From positions 47,818 through 111,817 of the forward strand of contig JAFEFT010000016.1 in NCBI GenBank assembly GCA_018240435.1: a DNA stretch of 64,000 nucleotides, written 5' to 3'. Shown here piece after piece: positions 7,436-64,000 of the stretch; within the stretch, counting starts at the first letter, position 1; every line of letters begins with the position of its first letter. This DNA is from Pseudomonadota bacterium (GTDB lineage Bacteria; Pseudomonadota; Gammaproteobacteria; Xanthomonadales; Xanthomonadaceae). The position numbers and the translations under genes are program-made. The notes under the pieces were generated by a model that was not told where the DNA came from, did no database searches, and saw only the letters and a list, made by a program, of their open reading frames with translations.

Positions 7436-7437
7436 GC

Positions 7438-7577
7438 CGTTTCCCGTTTCCCGTTTCCCGTTTCCCGTTTCCCGCTTTCCGCTTTCCACTTGCCACTTGC
7501 CGATCGCCGTCTGCCGTTTTCTGTCCTCTGCCCTCTGCCCTCTGCCCTCTGCCCTCTGCCCTCTGTCCTCTGTCCTC
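7438..7577. repeat. Twenty-unit heptad tandem array filling a convergent gap
   Basis: Exactly 20 consecutive 7-mers: CGTTTCC five times, CGCTTTC twice, CACTTGC twice, CGATCGC, CGTCTGC, CGTTTTC, TGTCCTC, TGCCCTC five times, TGTCCTC twice. The unit changes in blocks but the 7-nt register never breaks. The array starts 3 nt after the lipoprotein stop and ends 3 nt before the pdxH stop codon, so it fills the gap between two converging genes. The strand is pyrimidine-rich here (purine-rich on minus). Confidence 0.95.
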
Positions 7578-7579
7578 TG

Positions 7580-8173
7580 TCACGGATACAGCATCCGCTT
7601 TTCCCACGCGCCATCGCGCAATTCGTAGCGATAGCGTTCATGCAAACGGAAGTCGCCGGCGTACCAGAACTCGATGCCATCGGGGACGACGCGATAGCCG
7701 CCCCAGCCGGGCGGCCGCGGCACGTCGCGGCCTTCGAATTCATGTTCGGCACGGGCAATCGCCGCCTCGAAGCTCGCCCGCGAATCCAGCACCTGCGATT
7801 GCCGTGAGGCCCACGCGCCGATCTGGCTCATCCGTGGCCGGCTGGCAAAGTACGCATCGGCTTGCGCCTCGTCGACCCATTCCACTCGCCCCTCGATGCG
7901 CACCTGCACCGGCTGCGGCAGGTGCTTCCAGTGGAACAGCAAGGCCGCGCGCGGGTTGTCGCGCAGGTCGCGACCCTTGGCGCTGGCGCGATGCGTGTAG
8001 AAGACGAACCCGCGATCGTCGAATTGCTTGAGCAGCACCGTGCGCGCCGACGGCTCGCCGCGCGCGTTGGCGGTGGCCAGCGTCATCGCTGTCGGCTCAG
8101 GATCGCCCGACGCGCGCGCACGCTCGAGCAGATCGCGGAAGGTGTCCAGAATTTCGGGGGATACGTCGGTCAT
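7580..8173 (-). CDS. pdxH: Pyridoxamine/pyridoxine 5'-phosphate oxidase
   Basis: 197 residues, close to the family norm. PdxH is an FMN-dependent cytoplasmic oxidase making pyridoxal 5'-phosphate. Recognisable segments: [39 protein letters not shown], the FMN/substrate stretch [16 protein letters not shown], and the C-terminal [14 protein letters not shown] and [12 protein letters not shown] at 8173 gives the family N-terminus. Upstream on the same strand, beyond an inverted-repeat element, is the dodecin gene; downstream is the heptad array. The nearby yggS product also handles PLP, but no shared operon is evident. Confidence 0.96.
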
Positions 8174-25358: not shown

Positions 25359-25401
25359 GGTACGAAAGCACGATGCCGTCCACGCACGACGGCGAAGACG
25401 A

Positions 25402-25512
25402 CCCATCTTCCGGTGGACGCGAACGTCCCCGCAGGATTTGGCACCGCCCGGCGCTTGCGCGTCGCGGTTGCCCCGGCTTCCAAGGGCCTGTCCCTCAGCC
25501 GGTCTCGATGGG
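25402..25512 (-). ncRNA. SAM-I riboswitch upstream of metX
   Basis: Read on the minus strand the conserved SAM-I core is plain: GAGGGACAGGCCC, then GGAAGCCGGGGCAACC, then GGTGCCAAATCCTGC. The closing helix P1 is CCCATC (25512-25507) with GATGGG (25407-25402). The 111-nt aptamer lies between a strong promoter and metX. When S-adenosylmethionine is high it should close P1 and lower expression of metX-metB-hom. Identification rests on the conserved core and the gene context. Confidence 0.93.
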
Positions 25513-25524
25513 ATTGCGCGGACG

Positions 25525-33747: not shown

Positions 33748-36525
33748 ATGCCCCGCCTCGTCCTGATCGACGGCTCGTCCTACCTGTTCCGCGCCTTCCA
33801 TGCCCTGCCGCCGCTCAGCAATGCCGCCGGCGAGCCGACCGGCGCGCTGTTCGGGGTGGTCAACATGCTGCGCGCCACGCTGAAGGAAAAGCCCGAGTGC
33901 GCGGCCTTCGTCGTCGACGCGCCCGGGCCGACCTTCCGCGATGCGCTGTATCCGGACTACAAGGCCAATCGCCCGCCGATGCCCGACGACCTGCGCGCGC
34001 AGATCGAGCCGATGATGCAGATCGTCGCCGCGCTGGGCTTCCCGATCCTGCGCGTGCGCGGGGTCGAGGCCGACGACGTGATCGGCACCCTGGCGCTGCA
34101 GGCGCAGGCCGCCGGCAGCGAGGTGACGATCTCCACCGGCGACAAGGATTTCGCCCAGCTCGTGCGGCCCGGGATCGTCCTGGCCAACACCATGAAGACC
34201 CTGCACAGCGACGGCAGCCGACTCGATTCGGAGGCAAGCGTGGTGGCGAAGTTCGGCGTCCGCCCCGACCAGATCATCGATCTGCTCGCGTTGATGGGCG
34301 ACACGGTCGACAACATCCCCGGCGTCGAAAAATGCGGCCCGAAGACGGCGGCCAAGTGGCTGGGCGAATACGGCTCGCTCGACGGCGTGATCGCCAACGC
34401 CGACCGGATCGGCGGCAAGGTCGGCGAGAACCTGCGCGCGGCGCTGCCCCGGCTGCCGCTGAACCGGCAACTGACCACCATCAAGACCGACGTCGAACTC
34501 GACTTGCCGCACGACGCGCTGCGCCTGCGCGAACCGGACGTGGCGGCGCTGCGCGAGTTGTACCAGCGCTACGGGTTCAATGCGGCGTTGCGGGAATTGG
34601 ATGGGAAGCCGGGAATCGGGACCGAGAAGCCGGGAATCGGGAAAGCCGAAACGAGAATCGGAAGAGCCGGTTCGCCCAGCGGCGCCGAGCCGCTCGACCC
34701 CGCGCTGTCGGTCAAGGGCGAATACGAGTGCGTGACTGCCACCGCACAGCTCGATGCGTGGATCGAGCACCTGCGCACTGCGGAGTTGATCGCTTTCGAT
34801 ACCGAAACCGATTCGCTCGACCCGATGCGCGCCAATCTGGTCGGCATGAGCTTCGCGGTGGAGATCGGCCGCGCCTGTTACCTCCCGCTGGCGCACGAAT
34901 ATCCGGGCGCACCGGCGCAGCTGGATCGTGCCGCGACGCTGGCGGCGCTGCGGCCGATCCTCGAAGATGCGAACAAGCCCAAGCTCGGCCAGCACGGCAA
35001 GTACGACCTGCATGTGCTGCGGCGGCACGGCATCGACGTGGCCGGCTATGCGCACGACACGATGCTCGAATCCTTCGTCTGGAACGCCACCGGCAGCCGC
35101 CACGACATGGATTCGCTGGCGCAGCGCTACCTCGGCTACACCACGATCAAGTATGCCGATGTCACCGGCAAGGGCAGCAAGCAGCTCGCCTTCTCGCAAG
35201 TCGCGCTCGACGTCGCGACCGCCTATGCCGCCGAGGATGCCGACATCACCCTGCGCCTGCATCGCGCGCTGCAACCGAAACTGGCAGGCGAGCCGGCGCT
35301 GGCCAGTGTCTATCGCGACATCGAGATGCCGCTGGTGCCGGTACTCGAACGCATCGAGGCCAACGGTGTGCTGATCGACGCTGCCGAGCTGCACCGGCAA
35401 AGTCAGGATCTCGGCAAGCGCATGCACGCCGCACAGCAGCAAGCGCATGCGATCGCCGGCCACCCCTTCAATCTGGATTCGCCCAAGCAATTGCAGGCGA
35501 TCTTGTTCGACCAGCTCAAGCTGCCGGCGCTGGTGAAGACCCCCGGCGGCCAGCCCTCGACCAACGAGGAAGCGCTCGACGCCATTGCCGACGCCCACCC
35601 GCTGCCGCGGCTGATCCTCGAATACCGCGGCCTGGCCAAGCTGCGCAGCACCTATACCGAAAAGTTGCCGGCGGCGATCAACCCGGAAACCGGCCGCGTC
35701 CACACCAGCTACCATCAGGCCGGCGCGGCCACCGGGCGGCTGGCCTCGTCCGACCCGAACCTGCAGAACATTCCCGTCCGCAGCGACGACGGCCGCCGCA
35801 TCCGCAAGGCCTTCATCGCGCCGCCGGGGCGGCAGATCCTCGCCTGCGACTACTCGCAGATCGAGCTGCGGATCATGGCGCACCTGTCGGAAGACGCCGG
35901 CCTGCTGCGCGCCTTTGCCGCCGGCCTGGACATCCACCGCGCCACCGCCGCCGAGGTGTTCGGTGCCGCCTCGCCCGACGCCGTCAGCAGCGAGCAGCGG
36001 CGCGCCGCCAAGGCGATCAACTTCGGCCTGATCTACGGCATGAGCGCGTTCGGGCTGGCGCGCCAGCTCGGCATCGAGCGCGGCCAGGCGCAGGACTACA
36101 TCGGCCTGTATTTCTCGCGCTATCCGGGCGTGCGCGAGTACATGGAGCGCACCCGCGCGCAGGCGAAACAACGCGGCTACGTCGAAACCGTGTTCGGCCG
36201 CCGCCTGTATTTGCCCGACATCCACGCCCGCGACCAGGCCCTGCGCACCGGCGCCGAACGCGCCGCGATCAACGCGCCGATGCAGGGCACCGCCGCCGAC
36301 ATCATCAAGCGCGCGATGGTCGCCATCGACGGCTGGCTGCGCGGCCACGATTCACGCGCAAGGATGATCATGCAGGTGCACGACGAACTGGTGTTCGAGG
36401 CCGATGCCGACTTCATCGAAACGCTGCGTTCTGCTGCTGTCGAGAAGATGCAGGCCGCCGCCACGTTGCGAGTGCCGCTGGTGGTCGATTGCGGCACTGG
36501 CGACAATTGGGATCAGGCCCACTGA
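33748..36525 (+). CDS. polA: DNA polymerase I
   Basis: 925 residues: 5' nuclease domain (LVLIDGSSYLFRAFHALPPL, GVEADDVIGTLA, DTVDNIPGVEKCGPKTA), 3'-5' exonuclease (Exo I FDTETDS with D351/E353, GQHGKYDLHVL, Exo III YAAEDADIT) and polymerase (motif A DYSQIELR with D701, O-helix RRAAKAINFGLIYG, motif C QVHDEL with D879). It works in gap repair and Okazaki maturation. The linker between the first two domains holds three 7-residue repeats (287-307) encoded by the intergenic heptad repeat. ATG at 33748; a TACAAT box lies at 33716-33721. The sX13-like RNA follows. Confidence 0.97.
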   Translation: MPRLVLIDGSSYLFRAFHALPPLSNAAGEPTGALFGVVNMLRATLKEKPECAAFVVDAPGPTFRDALYPDYKANRPPMPDDLRAQIEPMMQIVAALGFPILRVRGVEADDVIGTLALQAQAAGSEVTISTGDKDFAQLVRPGIVLANTMKTLHSDGSRLDSEASVVAKFGVRPDQIIDLLALMGDTVDNIPGVEKCGPKTAAKWLGEYGSLDGVIANADRIGGKVGENLRAALPRLPLNRQLTTIKTDVELDLPHDALRLREPDVAALRELYQRYGFNAALRELDGKPGIGTEKPGIGKAETRIGRAGSPSGAEPLDPALSVKGEYECVTATAQLDAWIEHLRTAELIAFDTETDSLDPMRANLVGMSFAVEIGRACYLPLAHEYPGAPAQLDRAATLAALRPILEDANKPKLGQHGKYDLHVLRRHGIDVAGYAHDTMLESFVWNATGSRHDMDSLAQRYLGYTTIKYADVTGKGSKQLAFSQVALDVATAYAAEDADITLRLHRALQPKLAGEPALASVYRDIEMPLVPVLERIEANGVLIDAAELHRQSQDLGKRMHAAQQQAHAIAGHPFNLDSPKQLQAILFDQLKLPALVKTPGGQPSTNEEALDAIADAHPLPRLILEYRGLAKLRSTYTEKLPAAINPETGRVHTSYHQAGAATGRLASSDPNLQNIPVRSDDGRRIRKAFIAPPGRQILACDYSQIELRIMAHLSEDAGLLRAFAAGLDIHRATAAEVFGAASPDAVSSEQRRAAKAINFGLIYGMSAFGLARQLGIERGQAQDYIGLYFSRYPGVREYMERTRAQAKQRGYVETVFGRRLYLPDIHARDQALRTGAERAAINAPMQGTAADIIKRAMVAIDGWLRGHDSRARMIMQVHDELVFEADADFIETLRSAAVEKMQAAATLRVPLVVDCGTGDNWDQAH
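34606..34668 (+). repeat. Heptad repeat tract inside the polA coding sequence
   Basis: Three 21-nt units, each three 7-mers long, built from AAGCCGG, GAATCGG and related 7-mers. GAATCGG recurs every 21 nt. Because 21 is a multiple of 3, the tract encodes three 7-residue repeats KPGIGTE, KPGIGKA and ETRIGRA in frame. The unit GGGAATC is the same as in the intergenic arrays at 43066 and 56851. It falls in the flexible linker between the 5' nuclease and 3'-5' exonuclease domains. Confidence 0.88.
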
Positions 36526-36770
36526 CCGCCGCCTGCGGCAGCGCTGGCGCGGCTTGCCGGCGATGTCATGCCGTCGGCCGACGCCGCCGCGCACCGCCCG
36601 CAACGATGCGCGTGATGGTGGAAATCCGCGCCGCCGCATGCCGGAAGTCATGCATTCTCGGCCGTCCGGATTCCGGGCATGAATGCATCCTGAACCCATT
36701 CACGAAACTGCGGCCGCTTTCACGAACTCTAAAGGTCGGTAATGGTCAACTATGTCGCGACGGATGCAAC

Positions 36771-36889
36771 GTCCGTTGCCGGATGACTCTCTCCCCTGAG
36801 TGCATCCCACGGAAGTCCGCCTCTCCCCAAGGCCGGCTTCCACCCCTGGCCCCGCGAGCCCACCCCTGGCTCGCGGGGTTTTTATTTTT
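36771..36889 (+). ncRNA. sX13-like small RNA downstream of polA
   Basis: Three consecutive hairpins each expose CCCC in the loop: 36781-36807 (GGATGACTC with GAGT-G-CATCC, loop TCTCCCCT), 36811-36841 (GGAAG-CCG-CCT arms, loop CTCCCCA) and the terminator 36850-36878 (11-bp stem, loop CACCCCT) followed by a T-run. This is the known architecture of sX13, an Hfq-independent xanthomonad sRNA of about 115 nt that pairs with G-rich motifs around ribosome-binding sites. Placement next to polA also fits what I recall of it. The 5' end is not fixed; no clear promoter was identified. Confidence 0.75.
36850..36889 (+). terminator. Rho-independent terminator
   Basis: CCCCGCGAGCC (36850-36860) pairs perfectly with GGCTCGCGGGG (36868-36878) around CACCCCT, followed by TTTTTATTTTT. 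It ends the sX13-like RNA and probably any polA read-through. It lies 25 nt before the stop codon of the converging peptidase gene. Confidence 0.95.
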
Positions 36890-42956: not shown

Positions 42957-43065
42957 GCTCGAGCTTCAGCCGGTGACACGGTGGGAGCGGCAGCATGCCA
43001 GAGTTCCGTGCTTCGAGTTCACGCCACGACGTGAGGCGAACGCCGATGACATCCCCGCTCGCCAC

Positions 43066-43205
43066 GCGACTCGCCATTCGGGACTCGGGACCCGGGACTC
43101 CGAACTCGGGAATCGGGACTCGGGAATCGAGAATCGGGAATCGGGAATCGGGACTCGCAAATCCGAACTCGCAACTAAGAACTCCGAACTCCGACCTCGC
43201 AACTC
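43066..43205. repeat. Twenty-unit heptad tandem array at a gene 3' end
   Basis: Twenty consecutive 7-mers in unbroken register: GCGACTC, GCCATTC, GGGACTC, GGGACCC, GGGACTC, CGAACTC, GGGAATC and so on to GCAACTC, with consensus close to GGRAMTC. The array overlaps the first two bases of the stop codon of the GGDEF-type gene at 43204 and extends towards the EamA gene. Its length, 140 bp, equals that of the array at 7438. The rest of the gap (42957-43065) holds no gene. Confidence 0.95.
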
Positions 43206-56850: not shown

Positions 56851-56972
56851 GGGAATGGTGAATCGGGAATCGGGAAACGTGAATCGTGAATCGTGAAAGC
56901 AAACGCACGACGCCGCGGGAAGGGCAGCGGTACCCGCTTTGCCAATTCACTATTCACAAATCACCATTCACA
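56851..56972. repeat. Composite heptad element between rpsN and rpsH
   Basis: Seven 7-mers (GGGAATG, GTGAATC, GGGAATC, GGGAAAC, GTGAATC twice, GTGAAAG; 56851-56899), a 45-nt GC-rich spacer, then four inverse 7-mers (ATTCACT, ATTCACA, AATCACC, ATTCACA; 56945-56972). It can form a long hairpin in the spc operon mRNA. It lies 9 bp from the rpsN stop codon. Confidence 0.92.
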
Positions 56973-58275: not shown

Positions 58276-58294
58276 GGCTTTACCCTTGAAAGGC

Positions 58295-58412
58295 GGGAAT
58301 CGTGAAGCGTGAATCGTGAATCGTGAATCGTCAGAGCAAAAGCTGGCTCCTGGCGACTTCCTGATTCCGATTCCAACTCCCGCAAAAAAACGACTACCGA
58401 TTCCCGGCTCTC
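58295..58412. repeat. Composite heptad element between rplN and rplX
   Basis: Five 7-mers (GGGAATC, GTGAAGC, GTGAATC three times; 58295-58329), a spacer opening with GTCAGAGCAAAAGC, then scattered inverse units (GATTCCG at 58363, GATTCCC at 58399) up to the rplN stop codon. The spacer start resembles that of the element at 63925 (GTCAGATCAAAGGC). The right arm is more degenerate than in the other copies. Confidence 0.85.
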
Positions 58413-63860: not shown

Positions 63861-63924
63861 GGCTGGTGCCTTTGCATGTAAAGAGCGATTGTCTGGTTTG
63901 CCGCGGCTTTTCGCCGCGGCTTTC

Positions 63925-64000
63925 GTGAATCGTGAATCGTGATACGTGAATCGTCAGATCAAAGGCCTCTGCTCGAACGATTCACCATTCACGATTCACC
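63925..64000. repeat. Composite heptad element upstream of rpsJ (reaches window edge)
   Basis: GTGAATC twice, GTGATAC, GTGAATC (63925-63952), a 26-nt spacer starting GTCAGATCAAAGGC, then GATTCAC, CATTCAC, GATTCAC (63979-63999). It has the same heptad, spacer, inverted-heptad plan as the elements at 1860, 56851 and 58295. Between it and rpsJ, two copies of GCCGCGGC (about 63900-63920) can pair as a short GC hairpin. Confidence 0.9.

Follow-up and report, generated by a model that had tools for sequence, protein, structure and literature searches.

A dispersed heptanucleotide repeat (GGGANNN and variants) that lies mostly between genes was probably captured in frame in DNA polymerase I and in several other enzymes, where it would have been kept in place while its unit was rewritten. 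The heptad family itself has already been described, as GGGAATC or GGGNATC heptameric repeats in Xanthomonas and Nostoc (Rehm et al. 2015, PMC4692102). In the genomes compared here, heptads lie in frame in polA and also in four further proteins (PheT, MetG, MetH and a 4Fe-4S subunit), where they occupy loops or linkers at sites common to several species; the phenomenon is thus not peculiar to polA. Below, the window is the whole analyzed stretch of 64,000 nucleotides. Its polA features are as follows.

33748-36525, plus strand: polA, DNA polymerase I, 925 amino acids plus stop (translation; Pfam 5_3_exonuc_N, 5_3_exonuc, DNA_pol_A_exo1 and DNA_pol_A).
34603-34676, plus strand: heptad-derived stretch with five GGG tracts (sequence; 19-mer shared with array L148:1976).
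34606-34626, plus strand: 21-nt unit 1, KPGIGTE (sequence, translation).
34627-34647, plus strand: 21-nt unit 2, KPGIGKA (sequence, translation; lag-21 score of 22.0).
34648-34668, plus strand: 21-nt unit 3, ETRIGRA, degenerate (sequence, translation).

Translation and Pfam boundaries confirmed the earlier claim that KPGIGTE, KPGIGKA and ETRIGRA lie in the linker between the 5' nuclease and 3'-5' exonuclease domains: they occupy residues 287 to 307 (window 34606-34668), between 5_3_exonuc, which ends at residue 264, and DNA_pol_A_exo1, which begins at 326. AlphaFold2 (35 aligned sequences) gave residues 287 to 312 a pLDDT below 50 without secondary structure, and the tract is therefore a predicted disordered linker. 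The stretch at 34603-34676 reads GGGAAGCC GGGAATC GGGACC GAGAAGCC GGGAATC GGGAAAGCC and onward, with a unit spacing of 8+7+6. Its lag-21 score of 22.0 was equaled in none of 2,000 codon shuffles of polA (maximum, 16.4). When the protein was held fixed and only synonymous codons were shuffled, 46 of 2,000 shuffles of the linker equaled this score, and the peptide repeat thus accounts for some of the 21-nt signal; two GGGAATC units were attained in 1 of 2,000 such shuffles. The lag-7 score was only 7 and was equaled by 679 of 2,000 codon shuffles. Because the heptads are degenerate, this periodicity is within chance; a clean 7-nt periodicity of this tract was rejected, and 7-nt tandemness cannot be read from this copy alone. 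What ties the tract to the heptad family is its 19-mer GGGAAGCCGGGAATCGGGA, which recurs in array L148:1976; that array sits in the gap separating secA from a mutT-like gene, or else falls within the first codons of the mutT-like gene. Thus, of the proposed assignment to the heptad family, the shared sequence stood and the clean heptads did not. The published repeat is defined as at least 14 bp of (GGGAATC)n or (GGGANTN)n with at least one GGGAATC (PMC4692102); the polA tract has GGGAATC twice, and its next unit, GGGACCG, departs from GGGANTN. Two RNA features were also seen in the window, an Rfam sX13 sRNA directly downstream of polA (36768-36885, plus strand) and a SAM riboswitch (25400-25514, minus strand). 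Together with the named relatives, sX13, an sRNA of Xanthomonadaceae, points to the family Lysobacteraceae.

The other heptad arrays of the window are as follows (none is assigned a strand).

1859-1967 (arms 1859-1889 and 1938-1967): convergent pair of GTGAATC arrays, outside any spanning ORF.
7437-7581: long heptad array, no well-supported coding ORF.
43052-43205: GGGAATC/GGGACTC heptad array, no well-supported coding ORF.
56853-56897: GGGAATC/GTGAATC heptad array, outside any spanning ORF.
58294-58331: GTGAATC heptad array, outside any spanning ORF.
63923-63954: GTGAATC heptad array, outside any spanning ORF.

A first pattern, two GGGAATC units at a fixed gap, gave 0 matches. A 20-nt probe with at most 3 mismatches gave 546 matches in this genome (overlaps counted) and 0 for the same probe written backwards; 864 kb held 59 arrays at lag 7 versus 0 to 3 for each control lag (four were used). 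Over 1,044,497 bases, there were 84 lag-7 arrays with all heptad families pooled, in a scan that misses degenerate tracts such as the polA copy. Just 2 of the 84 (the MetH arms), or 3 counting one doubtful ORF, lie within coding-like ORFs, although such ORFs make up about 80% of the sample, suggesting that capture is rare. Nine adjacent opposite pairs less than 200 nt apart occur among these arrays, the MetH pair included, and all nine are convergent. Like the published GGGAATC repeats, the arrays are dispersed, lie mostly outside ORFs and include convergent pairs. In two xanthomonads, 89% and 93% of the published repeats are intergenic, and the remaining 11% and 7% overlap an ORF in whole or in part (PMC4692102). 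Another heptad family, GACAGAG/GGACAGA, accounts for 22 of the 84 arrays here, 0 of 15 in G001, 1 of 14 in G002 and 1 of 23 in G003. From the in-ORF scan, 5 of 15 segments were set aside as ordinary codon repeats or doubtful ORFs (two in L262 and one each in L166, L177 and L185), as were 2 of 10 in a further scan (L150 and L182); the set of the first scan was not unbiased, in that L002 and L003, already known to hold arrays, had been added.

Next to this genome (G000), four other species of the genus, which is uncultured, were compared (G001 to G004). A strict array probe, run on both strands with overlaps counted, gave 246 matches in G000, 228 in G003, 91 in G001, 65 in G002 and 0 in G004, whose assembly is 71% complete. 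Of 149 family genomes, those of this genus counted, 68 carry strict arrays, yet among the linkers extracted polA heptads occur only in this genus; the idea that genome load by itself led to capture in polA was therefore rejected. The idea that each species has a single heptad type was also rejected, as the units are mixed in each genome sampled. In G036 (genus g33), the backwards control gave 63 matches versus 7 for the array probe, probably reflecting another repeat family.

In three of the four other species, the same polA linker holds clean heptads: about eleven GGGAGCC/GCG-like units in G001 and about four GGGACTC-like units each in G002 and G003, the last read in the sense direction as GLGTRDS. 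Lag-7 scores were 32.0 (G001), 25.8 (G003) and 21.6 (G002), versus 7.8, 5 and 5 at the highest-scoring control lag of each linker, and the 7-nt periodicity is out of step with the codons. These clean arrays, together with the shared 19-mer, uphold the claim that the tract derives from a DNA heptad family. The G002 and G003 arrays lack the GGGAATC that the published definition includes, and a run of three GGGACTC-type units was absent from a 140-kb sample of G002, though its polA array is of that type. The G004 linker has no heptads. The proposed alignment check on relatives thus came out in part: the tract is absent from G004, but linker lengths (83 residues in G000, 95 in G001, 89 in G002 and G003 and 83 in G004) do not step by 7, so the suggested growth by 7 residues was not seen. 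In a tree built from polA without the linker, G000 to G003 grouped together with G004 outside (95/95), and the fork of G001 with G002 plus G003 was weak (82/68).

Outside this genus, no heptads were found among the 161 polA linkers extracted from 170 loci. Nine loci yielded no linker; L046, L075 and L112 at least were cut at the wrong place, L046 being read correctly in a separate comparison, and the rows include duplicates (for example, L066 is L004 and L097 is L003). A lag-7 score above 8 was reached only by G001, G002 and G003 (two of them duplicated) and by L117, a Halothiobacillaceae metagenome-assembled genome (MAG) whose linker scores through a G-rich palindrome. A palindrome, CCCTCTCCC..GGGAGAGGG, lies in frame in the linkers of L117 and of L143, a Competibacteraceae MAG. 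It occurs at 9 places in one of the two genomes and in the other at 5 when matched exactly with a variable gap, or at 9 when one mismatch is allowed and the gap is fixed, and one place in each fits the polA position. The presence of this dispersed palindrome in two unrelated gammaproteobacterial polA linkers suggests that this linker is tolerant in general. Separately, the motif RGTAAG[YHF]AR recurs across genera in the family's polA linkers and is missing in G000 and G001.

The sites in the other enzymes are shared in part with species of other genera. For PheT, 16 of 25 matched genomes were tried, and 4 of the 16 loops were not extracted; 5 of the 12 that were (G000, G001, G002, G003 and G011) hold heptads, all sense, directly after the motif RLFE[IVL]G[RK]VF. 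At this place, our PheT has 37 residues, with GGAACTC/GCAACTC units, where the solved PheT 4p71 has 11. For MetG, 11 of 16 matched genomes were taken, and heptads before the C-terminal domain were clear and antisense in 5 (G001, G002, G003, G004 and G008); the signal was weak in our genome (7 versus a control of 7.8) and in G005 (9.4 versus 8.0). The G001 array is read as SRVPSP, and that of G004 has a lag-7 score of 18.4, showing that G004 is not heptad free. Upstream of these antisense heptads, the MetG linkers L356, L357, L359, L361 and L362 carry a further repeat-like segment (PPPQPSPASRGG and similar). For MetH, 10 of 15 matched genomes were taken, and 3 (G000 and, from other genera, G005 and G008) have a convergent heptad pair in the same loop. 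In our MetH, the pair reads WESGIGNRES ... NDSRLPIPDSR within the Pfam activation domain, and its sense arm conforms to the published (GGGAATC)n/(GGGANTN)n definition; the solved MetH 3bul, presumably the E. coli enzyme, has 7 residues there. The loop is short, 9 to 11 residues, in G001, G006, G007, G009 and G151. For the 4Fe-4S subunit, 12 of 26 matched genomes were taken, of which 3 (G001, as an inverted pair, G002 and G003) hold heptads; none were found in this loop in our genome (lag-7 score of 3 versus a control of 4) or in G004. G004 gave no PheT or MetH match.

Three of the sites keep one orientation: sense in polA (4 of 4, our copy being weak), sense in PheT (5 of 5) and antisense in MetG (5 of 5 clear cases). 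Since the heptad is read sense in polA and PheT and antisense in MetG, yielding unrelated peptides, it is the DNA and not the peptide that drives the tract; the possibility raised at the outset that the repeat is protein driven is disfavored by the same either-strand reading. The units also bear on how such a repeat can be carried. All 10 GGGA-type units tested are stop free in all six frames, and the 5 tested units of GTGA type carry a stop in the sense direction only. Since 7 is not divisible by 3, the three frames of one strand of a pure heptad array all encode a single cyclic heptapeptide. GTGA-type arrays make up 24 of 59 GGGA- and GTGA-type arrays in the G000 sample and 12 of 21 in G003. 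Within genes, the arrays seen are GGGA-like, our PheT units included, with the sole exception of the G002 MetG array (GTGATTG), which is antisense, as expected from the sense-only stop rule; these numbers are too small for a statistical test.

We propose that the polA capture would have taken place in the ancestor of four of the five species compared, after G004 split off, and that the array then stayed at the same place in the same orientation. Its unit would have been rewritten to GGGAATC-like in G000, GGGACTC in G002 and G003 and GGGAGCC/GCG in G001, by mutation plus slippage or local homogenization, and the same capture process may have filled the PheT, MetG, MetH and 4Fe-4S subunit loops or linkers. 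Capture would be tolerated because GGGA-type units are stop free in six frames and alike in the frames of a strand and because the linker is disordered. The single capture in polA, slippage behind the turnover and neutrality are the steps that we infer: the clade tree and the shared linker site fit, without proving, one capture followed by unit change. Putative homology of the arrays between species rests on position and orientation, as the units differ so much. Counted against this explanation are our polA, MetG and 4Fe-4S copies, which have no significant 7-nt signal, the lack of 7-residue steps in polA, the incompleteness of G004 and its MetG array, the absence of GGGACTC-type runs from the G002 sample and the weak G001 fork.

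Two other readings differ from this explanation in one step only and are compatible with its core. The better surviving one, which we regard as possible but doubtful, is that captures happened repeatedly and independently, dispersed repeats landing over and over in the polA linker and the other loops. The content of the MetH loop varies accordingly: G000, G005 and G008 have heptad pairs, G003 (L339) and G002 (L340) have a CCCTCTCCC-type palindrome pair at that site and the loop is short in the five genomes named above, and the polA linkers of the two unrelated MAGs hold their own dispersed palindrome. However, units open on both strands should land both ways when fresh, and orientation is constant at polA, PheT and MetG. 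As to entry once or often per site, constant orientation favors once and the MetH palindrome in G002 and G003 favors often. The other reading, birth in place, holds that a chance GGGAAGCCGGGA in the linker grew by replication slippage with no copy imported. G000 and G001 have GATGGGAAGCCGGGA in common, and at that position G004 carries GATGACAAGCC but no array. We nevertheless consider it unlikely, since heptads in several enzymes and the genome-wide excess of 7-nt arrays suggest a common source and since simple slippage does not produce convergent pairs such as that in MetH.

A selected function, in which the G-rich tract acts in mRNA or DNA as a G-quadruplex (at least four GGG tracts) or linker length tunes the enzyme, is improbable. 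The polA tract does have five GGG tracts, and published consensus repeats gave in vitro evidence of G-quadruplex formation (PMC4692102), but the coding strand of the MetG arrays is rich in C, which leaves no quadruplex common to the coding strands, and the polA tract sequence is not conserved. Hardly credible is an ordinary low-complexity protein linker that came to resemble the repeat: other genera's linkers are often rich in Ala, Gly and Pro and the synonymous shuffles noted above sometimes reach the lag-21 score, but in relatives the 7-nt period is not in register with the codons and different enzymes use opposite strands of the same unit.

In-frame capture with later unit rewriting works like the Rickettsia palindromic elements, a likeness that was fairly drawn from the sequence, but the heptads are not such an element. 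Ogata et al. in 2000 reportedly described Rickettsia palindromic elements in proteins. Heptads share two traits of that type, presence in frame in conserved ORFs and at the same site in orthologues. The Rickettsia elements are dispersed, lying outside genes as well as in frame in ORFs, at the same orthologue site and in solvent-exposed parts, and PheT is among the genes with an insert (PMC3767692). Unlike them, the heptads form a 7-nt microsatellite-like array, not a 100- to 150-bp palindrome, in an unrelated lineage and with unrelated sequence; polA, PheT and MetG hold direct arrays, and an inverted heptad pair occurs only in MetH and the G001 4Fe-4S insert. The Coxiella QMITEs are similar in being small dispersed elements of a gammaproteobacterium that are sometimes read in frame, but they are miniature inverted-repeat transposable elements, not tandem heptads (PMC5896051). 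The Xanthomonas repeats belong to the same heptamer family, are mostly intergenic, form convergent pairs and often keep their position between two species while differing in length and sequence; in-frame capture in conserved enzymes and in-gene unit turnover are not described in the available part of that account (PMC4692102). In the open-licence literature, partly among the best 10 or 20 matches (20 of 3,607 in one case), we found no report of heptads in frame in enzymes, and the combination of differing units at fixed in-gene sites was not found there among the best matches listed.

Taken together, these results lead us to suggest, tentatively, that in-frame heptad arrays may be long-lived residents of fixed loops and linkers in the family's replication and translation enzymes. 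Site and orientation would be kept across species (in MetG, MetH and PheT also between some genera) with one unit replacing another time and again, and a microsatellite-like DNA element would thus go on rewriting disordered protein segments with the frame intact. Housekeeping enzymes can carry a 7-nt repeat, normally frame shifting, because stops are missing from all six frames of its common units and all frames of a strand read alike. The parallel sites, several in number and present in several species, make it possible to measure how new protein segments arise from noncoding repeats and then turn over.
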